From the NCBI GenBank assembly GCA_950022655.1, contig OX465579.1, positions 14,545,088-14,609,087 of the forward strand: a DNA stretch of 64,000 nt, given 5' to 3'. This stretch comes from Alentia gelatinosa. Lineage: Eukaryota; Annelida; Polychaeta; Phyllodocida; Polynoidae. Position numbers and translations under genes: made by a program. How positions within the stretch are numbered: the first letter of the stretch is position 1; each line of letters opens with the position of its first letter. This document shows, one piece after another, positions 12,101 to 18,100 of the stretch. Under the pieces are notes generated by a model. That model ran no database searches and had not been told where the DNA came from. It was given only the letters and a program-made list of their open reading frames with translations.

Positions 12101-15100
12101 AACCCCCACTAAAACCCAATTCCTTAATGGTAGCTATGTGTGAGTATTGAAGGTCACTATATGTATATTCGCCGATCCGCCTGGTGACTCGCGGTCAAAA
12201 AAAGACTAAAGAAATTCTGACAATGGGCGAGTCCGCCATCTTGCTGGTGACAACAGACTGTCACCAGCGGCCCTAAACCACTCGAGGTTGACGTCGTAAT
12301 ACACTCGCTAGCGCTCATGTATTTCTACGTGCCAACCACTTGTGGTTTGCGGCCACCTGTCCACAAAACCATCAATTATTGTCTATGAAAACCCCGCTTA
12401 AGGGGGTTCTTTCGGAACTCGGAACGGAAAGTTTGCCCTTAAGCGGGGTTTTATTGTATATATAGAAAATAATCGATGGTTTTGTGGACAGGCGGCCGTA
12501 AACCACGAGAGGTTGACGGGTAGTAATACACGAGCGCTAGCGAGTGTATTACGAGGTCAACCGCGGGTGGTTTACAGAGCTGCCTGTCCACAAAATCATC
12601 GTTTGGTTCATTTATTATCCATCTTTTCGAATAAATTTAACCCAGTAATTGCCGTATTAACGGGTATAACATTAATGATTAGGAACTATTTCGTTGCTCT
12701 ATAGCAAAAGGGACTATTTTCCCCATACACCATGGTTTTGAGGCCGTATACCACAGGTTTTAATCCGTATACCACAGTTATGGTATCTGACAGGTTTTAT
12801 ACAATGGGTAGTGGTTTACTGAGTCCCCATATATATATTTTCAATGGGGACTTTGTATACGATGGATAATAAAACATTGTCGTGACTTACTAACCTGGGA
12901 TGGCGAGTGGTTTGATTCCGTTCTTGTTCTGCTGGTCGCTGAAGGCTGTGTGCGCGATGAGAATCACCGACTGATGGCTGACAGGGTTGTGACGGGTCAC
13001 CGACACCACGTCGGGGTTCACCTGATCCACGAACAGCTGCAGGGACAACACGGGGACATATTTATCACGTGGAACTTACAACCGACTGATGACTGACAGG
13101 GTTGTGACGGGTCACCGACACCACGTCGGGGTTCACCTGATCCACGAACAGCTGCAGGGACAACAGGCGGACATATTTATCACGTGGAACTTACAACCGA
13201 CTGATGACTGACAGGGTTGTGACGGGTCACCGACACCACGTCGGGGTTCACCTGATCCACGAACAGCTGCAGGGACAACACGGGGACATATTTATCACGT
13301 GGAACTTACAACCGACTCATGACTGACAGGGTTGTGACGGGACACCGACACCACGTCGGGGTTCACCTGATCCACGAACAGCTGCAGGGACAACACGGGG
13401 ACATATTTATCACGTGGAACTTACAACCGACTCATGACTGACAGGGTTGTGACGGGTCACCGACACCACGTCGGGGTTCACCTGATCCACGAACAGCTGC
13501 AGGGACAACACGGGGACATATTTATCACGTGGAACTTACAACCGACTGATGACTGACAGGGTTGTGACGGGTCACCGACACCACGTCGGGGTTCACCTGA
13601 TCCACGAACAGCTGCAGGGACAACAGGCGGACATATTTATCACGTGGAACTTACAACCGACTGATGACTGACAGGGTTGTGACGGGTCACCGACACCACG
13701 TCGGGGTTCACCTGATCCACGAACAGCTGCAGGGACAACACGGGGACATATTTATCACGTGGAACTTACAACCGACTCATGACTGACAGGGTTGTGACGG
13801 GACACCGACACCACGTCGGGGTTCACCTGATCCACGAACAGCTGCAGGGACAACACGGGGACATATTTATCACGTGGAACTTACAACCGACTCATGACTG
13901 ACAGGGTTGTGACGGGTCACCGACACCACGTCGGGGTTCACCTGATCCACGAACAGCTGCAGGGACAACACGGGGACATATTTATCACGTGGAAGTTACA
14001 ACCGACAGATGACTGACAGGGTTGTGACGGGACACCGACACCACGTCCGGGTTCACCTGATCCACGAACAGCTGCAGGGACAACAGGCGGACATATTTAT
14101 CACGTGGAACTTACAACCGACTGATGACTGACAGGGTTGTGACGGGTCACCGACACCACGTCGGGGTTCACCTGATCCACAAACAGCTGCAGGGACAACA
14201 CGGGGACATATTTATCACGTGGAACTTACAACCGACTGATGACTGACAGGGTTGTGACGGGTCACCGACACCACGTCGGGGTTCACCTGATCCACGAACA
14301 GCTGCAGGGACAACACGGGGACATATTTATCACGTGGAACTTACAAACGACTGATGACTGACAGGGTTGTGACGGGACACCGACACCACGTCCGGGTTCA
14401 CCTGATCCACGAACAGCTGCAGGGACAACAGGCGGACATATTTATCACGTGGAACTTACAACCGACTGATGGCTGACAGGGTTGTGACGGGTCACCGACA
14501 CCACGTCGGGGTTCACCTGATCCACGAACAGCTGCAGGGACAACACGGGGACATATTTATCACGTGGAACTTACAACCGACTGATGGCTGACCGGGTTGT
14601 GACGGGTCACCGACACCACGTCGGGGTTCACCTGATCCACGAACAGCTGCAGGGACAACACGGGGACATATTTATCACGTGGAATTTACAACCGACTGAT
14701 GACTGACAGGGTTGTGACGGGTCACCGACACCACGTCGGGGTTCACCTGATCCACGAACAGCTGCAGGGACAACAGGCGGACATATTTATCACGTGGAAC
14801 TTACAACCGACTGATGACTGACAGGGTTGTGACGGGTCACCGACACCACGTCCGGGTTCACCTGATCCACGAACAGCTGCAGGGACAACAGGCGGACATA
14901 TTTATCACGTGGAACTTACAACCGACTGATGACTGACAGGGTTATGACGGGTCACCGACACCACGTCGGGGTTCACCTGATCCACGAACAGCTGCAGGGA
15001 CAACAGGCGGACATATTTATCACGTGGAACTTACAACCGACTGATGACTGACAGGGTTGTGACGGGTCACCGACACCACGTCGGGGTTCACCTGATCCAC

Positions 15101-18100
15101 GAACAGCTGCAGGGACAACACGGGGACATATTTATCACGTGGAACTTACAACCGCAAAGAAAACATGCAGAACACATCGGTGTTGGGGTATGGAATAAAG
15201 CTCTGTCTCCACTGTGCGATAATAGGTACATAGGTACATCCAGTCTCAGACTGGGCGTACCTTTAGGATCGCAACGCGGGAAAACGCACATTGGAGACTG
15301 CAAGTTTCCCGCTAGTCTGAGACTGGACGTACCGCATGTACCGCAAGCGTTTTTAAATTTCAAACATGTTTGATATTTGGTATGCCCAGTCTGAGACTGG
15401 ATGTACCAATGTGGGGGTTGGATTTCAACCCACAAAGTCCTACAACCTTGGGGTTACAAGTCTAGTGCTCTAACGACTGAACGAACTCCCCATCCCCCGC
15501 CACGATTTTAATCTGTGTGTCACAGAGCTTTCCGACGTGTTAATCATAGCCGAATCGTAGCAGGTGGACGCCTTACCTGGTTGAATCCGGCCAGGCCGAT
15601 GTCATGGTGGAGTTTGTTGAGCGCCCTCTTAGCGGCGATGATTCCCGTGTCAAAGTTCACCGTTCTCGGTAAAGGTTTGTCCGACCAGCACGCGTACATA
15701 CGCGGCTCCGTCACCACGTTTATCTGAAACAGATTATCATCATCTACCTGTGGCTGTATGAACTACTATAGAGGAAACCCATGAAAGTTTAGGGTCAGAG
15801 CTCTCCCCTACAATGCCTACATGCAAAACGAATTGCCTCATGGATGAGTGCACACAGACCTGTCTGCATGCTGCCTGCCCATGTGGTCCGACAAAATCCT
15901 TGTTCTTATACACACCAATAAAGTAGGTCAAGCCAATATCTGGTGGTAAATGACATTACAAATGATTTTACAAAACAATATCATTTGACTGGGTCTTGAC
16001 TGATTCCTACAACAAAGTTATGAACCATTTTGACTTCTGTTTGTGTGTAAATATGATGAATGAAATATCTTCTCATACACCTTCTGCCTCCCCCCCCCCT
16101 CCCATTATGAGATTTGGCAAAAATACATGAATAGCACAACAAATATACATTTCACCTTGATAATGACACTTTCTAGGGTGTAAGCAACTGTCAGAGCAAC
16201 ATATGGAGATGGTAAATGTTACACTTATGCTGAATGTAAATCAATATTGAGTAAACATGTGTTTGGGTTTGCACATTTCACCATAACCCCCCCCCCCCCC
16301 CCCCCCCGCCAACTCTCAACAAATACCTGAATATCTCAGTAAATATAGAATCTACCTGGAAAATTCCACTTCCTAGCACCTACTGTTTTTTATTCTCTTT
16401 CTAATGAGGCATATTATATTATGATTGAACTAGTTTTACAGGTAGAAATATGTCCATAAAGGAGTTCTTAAAAATGGTCCCCCCCCCCCCCCAATTTAAA
16501 TCTCTTATTTCTAAAAATCCATGTCAAAATACTAAATACTAAAACTGTAATATATTGTATGGTCACGAGTTCCTATTGTTAACCCTATGGACGTTCAGAC
16601 CAGGCTAAGATAAAGGGATAGGGTTAAGGCTGATGGGTCTGCAGGCGGGCTGCAGGGCAGGACCCAGGTAGGGACTGAGTTCATCTGTTTCGCAGATGGA
16701 GTCTACAGCGGTATCGAGTTCGCAGATGGACCGAGTCTGTCCAGGTAGAAGTCCAGTGGTATTTAGAAGAAAACCCACGAGATAGAAATAGCTTGGTCCG
16801 TACTCCACTGAGTTTGACATTTCACAAAGCAAAGCTGAGTAAATTACTCTGCGGTCAAATGAGGTGGAGTGCAGACCAAGTTATTTTCATCAAGTGGGTT
16901 TCTGATTTTATCTCACCCCGTATAACACTATTTATTGATAAAATGAATCACATAATTAGCCATTGAGTATTGGCCCCACCCCCACCCCCACTCTCCGTCT
17001 TAATTTTGTACCAATAGAACGAAGAAATACAAACTTCCAAAGGTTTTGATCCTCCCTCCTACCTCACCCTGACCCCCTCAGTGCGTACATACTTCATGGA
17101 TGGCCCCAGAGGAAGCATATGCACTGTAATTAAAAAAGAAAAGACTGTAAGACTTACATGGTGGTTGACCATCTCGTCGTAGCCGCGGTTACTGCCCGTG
17201 GCACAGGAAGCCATGGCGACGAGACCAGCACTCGGTAACAGGTCCAGGGCAGTGCGTTTCTGACAATGTATAACATCAGGTATGTCAGTAGGGTCAGACA
17301 AAAACAGTGAAAATAAATTTTGTGAGGAATTCTCTGCCTCATATAGACAGAGGAAACATAGAATGAACATTTTTTCTGAAGATCATGTCAAGTGTAGGAG
17401 AATCTCTCTCTTTTTTTAAAGTGAAACGGAATGATTATTGGTGTGATTAAGTCTCAATCACTTACACAAGGAATCTTTTATAATAGGAATATAACGCCAA
17501 GGAGACCAAGCGGGAATGTGGGTCATTGGATTCAACACTAATGGATGAACCTATGGAAGACTAAAACAGTCTTAGTGAACAAATCTATAAATTATTAAAC
17601 GATAGCCCTTGTACGATAGGTACAGATAGGGGGTCTTCATGTGCGGTCCTAGATTGTTAAACGGGCCCCAGGTATAGTTAGTGTCAGTTACGAGACGTTC
17701 TAGTCCTGCACTGGACAATGGTCATTGTAACTGACAAACTCGGTATGTGGCGAGAGATTTCAATAAACTAAAATAAATATATCGAAGAATTAGATAAACT
17801 AAAACTTAAATAATCAATAGAAAAACACAGTTTTGCGTATTTATCGTATCGTTCGCACTGTACATAGCAGTTTGAGCCTCCTACTAAAAAACATATTATG
17901 AGATAGTCCTGAATGATGCGCCTTGGTCAAAAGACATATTTCATGTAGATTTTGTTATTAACAGAATCAATGTCAGTTACTAAAGAAAATTTGTAATCAA
18001 CTGTTTTTGTTCCAAAATAATCTTTATTAGTTGGTTTTAGCCTATAAATAAATTACAGGGGGGTTAGAGGGACAAGGTTTCATCCGCTTCATACTCATCA

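Follow-up and report, generated by a model that had tools for sequence, protein, structure and literature searches.

The stretch of DNA analysed here (the window: 64,000 nt of Alentia gelatinosa contig OX465579.1, with positions counted from its first letter) carries part of AGL, the gene for glycogen debranching enzyme, on its minus strand, and across the acceptor at which intron 13 of this gene meets exon 14 there lies a 115-bp minisatellite of 19 copies (12966..15154, minus strand), each unit of which joins the last 43 nt of the intron to the initial 72 nt of the exon. By structural definition, as far as sequence can establish it, this array and two smaller ones at the acceptors of exons 20 and 11 are mirage-type minisatellites: at all three exons the boundary lies inside the repeat unit, the authentic boundary is intact at the edge of the array while the gene remains coding (1259 aa, with phases maintained through exons 11, 14 and 20), and AG and GT signals occur in many but not all of the repeats. 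We consider it rather likely that the exon 14 array is a repeat of this type that originated by duplication, that exon 13 is mostly joined to the real exon 14, and that the array is tolerated rather than selected.

Tandem Repeats Finder describes the array as having a period of 115, 19.0 copies, 97% matches and 0% indels (12966-15154), which bears out the first-pass annotation in so far as it had proposed a minisatellite with 18 extra units at this exon. The register of the units follows from the word CTGTT(C/T)GTGGATCAG..., which is present in all 19 copies at spacings of exactly 115 (18/18), and from CCCTGCAG, the end of the intron-like 43 nt, which stands directly before each of the 19 exon-part copies; this is not a chance match. 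In gene orientation the real exon 14 comes last (12895..13036, minus strand, 142 nt, starting in phase 0), its first 72 nt being the repeated part. The 18 extra copies provide decoy exon parts of 72 nt or 24 codons each, beginning with 15035..15106 and continuing in 115-bp steps to 13080-13151, and the 18 pieces of 43 nt that separate neighbouring units are potential introns, the first (GTAAGT...CCCTGCAG) at 14992..15034 and the last at 13037-13079, all of these on the minus strand. The preceding exon 13 (15577..15723, minus strand) ends in phase 0 at the donor CAG|GTAAGG, so that both the frame-neutral 24-codon geometry and the 43-nt spacing (115 less 72) that had been claimed for the units are correct. 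The acceptor AG is kept in 19/19 copies, and the unit junctions show GT in 18/18 cases and GTAAGT in 16/18, the exceptions being GTAAAT after unit 4 and GTAACT after unit 10; the earlier description of every unit as comprising an acceptor, 72 nt of exon 14 and a GTAAGT donor therefore stands for the first two components, but not at all junctions for the third. Both exceptions are changes at donor position +5 (G to A at 14685 and G to C at 13995), and they make up two of the four distinct changes seen in the intron part of the array. On its exonic side the unit donor has GTT (TTT after unit 7), unlike a CAG- or AAG-like end. In structural terms, then, the extra copies have what a cassette exon would need (72 nt, phase 0 at either side, no stops, and both AG and GT in 18/18), with donors that are weak.

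It would be natural to take the intact frame as a sign of selection, but the numbers do not encourage this. All 18 extra exon parts are free of stops and indels, as had been noted at the outset; however, only 4 of the 216 possible single changes are nonsense, and the chance of finding none among 9 changes is 0.85 under neutrality, so that stop-free units are uninformative on selection. The exon part has 9 distinct variants, of which 5 are silent (positions 6, 24, 48, 54 and 60) and 4 change an amino acid; a first impression that variants were mostly silent or mild fits the silent ones, T14S and Q22E, but Q22L and V24F also occur, so not all are mild. The silent share (5/9) is marginal (P = 0.045), and since the same lean would be produced by gene conversion with the real exon it is not evidence of selection. 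Purifying selection on the frame was accordingly rejected, the stop test being powerless, the silent excess marginal and the prediction shared with gene conversion; the array is probably tolerated rather than selected. Variable sites are no denser in one part of the unit than in the other (9/72 in the exon part, 3/43 in the intron part; P = 0.53). Units 11-14 and 15-18 form a near-identical block (lag 4, with one mismatch in four units), and this block duplication is recent.

As to origin, a duplication at a CGGT microhomology most probably gave rise to the array, placing a GTAAGT that the intron already possessed behind a fragment of the exon. The ancestral 3' end of intron 13 (15107..15154, minus strand) contains both the CGGT (15151-15154) and the GTAAGT, the latter being the likely source of the unit donors, while the other side of this 4-nt microhomology at the breakpoint is a CGGT within exon 14 (12966..12969, minus strand); in the comparison of breakpoints, the sequences are TTTGCGGTTGTAAGT for the intron upstream of the array, CAGTCGGTGATTCTC for exon 14 and CAGTCGGTTGTAAGT for the junction. 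A tandem duplication through this microhomology would have taken in the acceptor and the adjoining 72 nt of exon 14, and unequal exchange or slippage would have brought about both the expansion to 19 copies and their homogenisation. Because a GTAAGT already stood 43 nt upstream of the acceptor, most junctions would have gained a usable donor by accident, and with it a length divisible by 3, so that the cassette geometry itself would most likely be an accidental by-product of one duplication. The breakpoints, the copies and the recent four-unit block can be read off directly, whereas a single founding event and the mechanism of exchange are what we infer. A boundary-spanning duplication that supplies both an acceptor and a donor, as the breakpoints and the pre-existing GTAAGT indicate here, is what is described for intron gain by tandem duplication, and such an array would be a ready substrate for that process.

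A repeat scan with boundary probes located the two other acceptor-spanning arrays, both on the minus strand. One has 51-bp units (one of 50), in which the exon 20 acceptor and the adjoining 17 nt of exon recur 10 times besides the real copy (array 3495..4055; real exon 3183..3511); in the other, with units of 91-92 bp, the exon 11 acceptor and the adjoining 8 nt of exon recur 5 times besides the real copy (array 18466..19013; real exon 18310..18473). Their copies retain the AG, but spacing is exact in only 12/15 units and the units are less alike than those of the 115-bp array; the two arrays are perhaps older. In the pyrimidine tract the extra copies have G where the real site has T, in 10/10 cases at exon 20 (real 3511, copies 3562-4020) and in 5/5 at exon 11 (real 18473, copies 18564-18931), and a leave-one-out acceptor matrix (19 sites) would support a weakening of the copies for exon 20 only, the exon-11 copies scoring higher than their real site. 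No usable donor was found in either array, the best GT of the 51-bp array scoring 4.04 on the donor matrix described below and no GT of the 92-bp array reaching 4, and neither the 51-bp nor the 92-bp unit was retained as a candidate cassette. That arrays of this kind occur where no usable donor was found suggests that they reflect a mutational process, not selection for cassettes. Among 10 AGL arrays with periods of 33-115, three span an acceptor where 0.23-0.30 would be expected, the probability of three or more being 0.001-0.003, or 0.016 if all 40 junctions (donors too) are counted as targets; these values were computed after the arrays had been seen and leave out arrays of shorter period. 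When 26-nt probes for the 20 acceptors and 20 donors were run, other duplicated boundaries, beyond the three arrays, were represented by single matches only (the exon 5 donor, at 27691, and, on the opposite strand, the two edges of exon 12), and as random 26-nt probes average 2.1 matches, lone boundary matches prove nothing by themselves. Splicing errors at the exon 14 array, leading to frame-neutral steps of 24 aa, would cost less than errors at the arrays of exons 11 and 20.

How far the decoys might compete with the real exon depends on the strength of their signals. Donors were scored on a matrix built from AGL's own donors, on which the 20 real ones span 5.06-10.51 (leave-one-out). The commonest unit donor, present at 15/18 junctions, scores 5.81, the remaining three junctions scoring 3.71, 2.11 and 0.05; the value of 5.81 falls within the AGL range but at its weak end, with 1/20 real donors lower and 5% of the GT sites of the strand scoring as high. 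The real exon 14 donor (CAG|GTTAGT) scores 9.93, or 8.13 leave-one-out, and every 115-bp unit contains in addition a rival donor, CAG|GTGAAC, which at 6.15 is also above the unit donor. The position is different for the acceptors (again scored leave-one-out, on a matrix of only 19 AGL sites): 11/18 decoys are identical to the real exon 14 acceptor over 20 nt (7.42), and the remaining 7/18 are lower (4.65). Splicing of adjacent units would leave an intron of 43 nt, whereas non-adjacent units leave at least 158 nt, which limits to about 9 of the 18 the number that could be combined if ultra-short introns are to be avoided. The shortest of the 20 AGL introns in the window has 498 nt, and judged against this the initial proposal that any number of units could be spliced in is unlikely to be right; alternate units with 158-nt introns, or one unit together with a long skip, would be mechanically easier than adjacent units. 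A human intron of 43 nt is reported to be spliced, but it is rich in G and is described as having no authentic branch site (PMC4463651). Retention of the 43-nt piece would introduce in-frame stops (TGATAA in the AGL frame). Folding of a 347-nt RNA stretch (three units) gave z = -2.62, with 1/100 shuffles equally good; tandem units can pair mutually.

With a stronger donor at the real exon 14, weak decoy donors and decoys only 43 nt apart, the real exon should be favoured, and exon 13 would thus be expected to join it in most transcripts, with at most minor isoforms of +72 nt; if a single decoy, or alternate decoys, were included now and then, steps of 24 aa would be added without a frameshift. 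Several points nevertheless weigh against this expectation. The decoy acceptors are near the real one in strength, if acceptors were chosen co-transcriptionally in their order of appearance, the advantage would lie with the first decoy, which has the same acceptor as the real exon, and one duplication of a comparable kind, in potato RdRp, does undergo splicing, as 106 RNA-Seq reads attest (PMC4974935); no transcript or protein of this species was recognised in three protein searches. Such considerations could be carried further, to the view that the units serve as alternative cassette exons, so that mRNAs have 0, 1 or several 72-nt steps, made mostly of non-adjacent units with introns of at least 158 nt, and debranching enzymes have duplicated 24-residue segments in the central domain; junction reads of the form ...CAGTCGGTT joined to CTGTTCGTG... 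would be its signature. We think this unlikely. The intact frame, phase and AG (18/18), the near-constant GTAAGT (16/18) and the silent lean of the variants are what it would lead one to expect, as is spacing exact in 18/18 units against 12/15 in the less similar, perhaps older, arrays at exons 20 and 11; the potato duplication, with its activated cryptic GTAAG, and the human 43-nt intron show that comparable structures can be spliced. Yet homogenisation from the real exon, together with youth, accounts for the same pattern, the donors are weak (two of them damaged at +5) and outscored by the internal CAG|GTGAAC of each unit, and amphioxus mirages are reported not to disturb splicing (PMC3087553, PMC3902484). 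Nor is the 24-residue segment repeated in tandem, or a junction word like SVLFVDQ present, in any of the 210 homologous proteins examined, none of which appears to come from this species; as these are proteins of other organisms, the result means that the repeat is absent there and says nothing on its use here. The 210 comprise 120, 43 and 47 new proteins from the 1969, 43 and 50 matches of three protein searches, two of which scored only about 8000 candidates sharing most words, the length limits leaving a gap at about 449-589 aa. The segment is present once in 204 of them (6, from the 43-match search, have no match), and in three (P0058, P0064 and P0111) a second match of 9-10 residues elsewhere is a chance one and not a tandem copy. 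Best identity to the AGL model was 63% among the 120 long proteins and, over a 32-residue segment, 84% among fragments.

Two other explanations appear very improbable to us. That the array is partly or wholly an artefact, a tandem repeat collapsed or over-expanded in assembly, gains something from the error-prone nature of near-identical tandem units and from the misassembly of one amphioxus mirage reported for a draft genome (PMC3087553), but the units differ at about 12 positions, the flanks are unique, and three arrays of unlike period and divergence lie at three acceptors. A regulatory role, in which competing acceptors or stop-bearing retention lower AGL through nonsense-mediated decay, to an extent set by the number of copies, is no more attractive; it could draw on the TGATAA of the retained piece and on the 11/18 upstream acceptors that equal the real one, but sits poorly with amphioxus mirages reported to be without effect on the regular mRNA (PMC3087553, PMC3902484). 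The boldest form of cassette use, with AGL enzymes bearing 0 to about 9 extra 24-residue segments from alternate units of a polymorphic minisatellite, strikes us as improbable. If true, it would make the number of units a heritable variable of protein length, a variable-number tandem repeat whose units encode cassette exons instead of forming one uninterrupted coding repeat, and the exon 14 array would have been caught between mirage repeat and intron gain.

The host gene itself is modelled as 21 coding exons on the minus strand, running from 42698 to the left end of the window, where it leaves (1..42698). Exon edges were located by tblastn with relatives and then placed by hand on AG/GT sites; the joined exons have no stops and consistent phases, the 3' end of the gene being outside the window. 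Pfam domains hGDE_N, hDGE_amylase, hGDE_central and GDE_C are recognised, the last cut by the window edge. Among the 120 long matches listed, the closest is Capitella teleta (63% identity). In a tree of the model and 30 of these 120 relatives, the model falls in a fully supported nine-row clade with Capitella, Dimorphilus, Helobdella and five further sequences, while Owenia, also an annelid, is outside it in an open part of the tree. An affinity with amphioxus was considered and rejected, since the two Branchiostoma sequences are only 52-53% identical to the model and lie elsewhere in the tree, which groups the model with annelids.

Other features of the window were noted as well. An inverted 130-nt copy, 91% identical, of exon 12 with 28 nt of upstream intron lies in intron 2 (33781-33910 on the plus strand; the original is at 17158-17287 on the minus strand); it ends exactly at the last base of the exon, where an interspersed repeat (33911-34209) begins, relatives of which are found at 8813-9109 and 54332-54498. 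At 34207 the sequence loosely resembles the context of the exon 12 donor, which could be coincidental. A dispersed family of minisatellites of 33-35 bp, grouped by eye and sharing a palindromic core of the type GATGCCTTGAGGCATC, occurs at 10834-11272, 21273-21530, 27083-27170, 31397-31516 and 62913-63003, one of them starting some 35 nt past the donor of exon 15, and intron 1 holds three related 73-bp arrays (39377-39519, 41023-41241 and 42004-42595), the last of which starts 18 nt behind the exon 1 donor and includes no exon sequence. There is also a CTGC tetranucleotide array of about 64 copies (47798-48052), as well as an open reading frame (49544-49942, minus strand) with a YIDDIFF stretch that we take to resemble a piece of reverse transcriptase.

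Among known systems, earthworm metallothionein resembles AGL as an annelid gene with intronic minisatellites (in intron 1) and exon duplications (of exon 4, said to be missing from the final transcript; PMC12783039), but differs in that the text seen does not describe a boundary-spanning repeat unit. In potato RdRp (PMC4974935), as in AGL, the 3' end of an intron and the 5' part of an exon were duplicated, a cryptic GTAAG(T) became a new donor, and acceptor, tract and branch region were inherited. The potato case as reported is, however, one duplication common to two species and spliced, whereas AGL has 18 extra copies known from sequence alone, its donor comes from the intron and not the exon, and its new intron would be 43 nt long; the CGGT duplication also differs from the AGGT model.

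The closest parallel is with the mirage minisatellites of amphioxus, described for Adh3, the globins BflGb6 and BflGb9, and TnC, with similar repeats in PGBD5 (PMC3087553, PMC3902484). There too, tandem repeats lie across an exon-intron boundary of a working gene and the copies resemble splice sites, the units ranging from tens of bp to about 160 bp and involving both types of boundary, where AGL has three acceptors. Regular splicing seems undisturbed in those genes, and length instability, even somatic, has been reported; both of these features are known from amphioxus only, the AGL arrays being known from one assembly. No report of mirages outside amphioxus was met with in the literature searched, in which subscription journals are thinly covered and two papers that each use the word once (PMC9912274, PMC7710358) fell outside coverage. 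What we have here is a known but little-known kind of structure, probably new in its host group. AGL differs from the amphioxus cases in being a gene that groups with annelids and in having three arrays at once, and its exon 14 array in having a 72-nt, frame-neutral exon part with GTAAGT after most units. The amphioxus globin paper proposes that a mirage unit may turn into a real exon, and mirage repeats have been put forward as intermediates in intron gain; the presence of three of them in a single annelid-like gene would mean that the process is not confined to cephalochordates, and the exon 14 array would provide a natural test both of acceptor choice by the spliceosome where 19 nearly equal sites are on offer and of whether repeats of this kind ever become exons.

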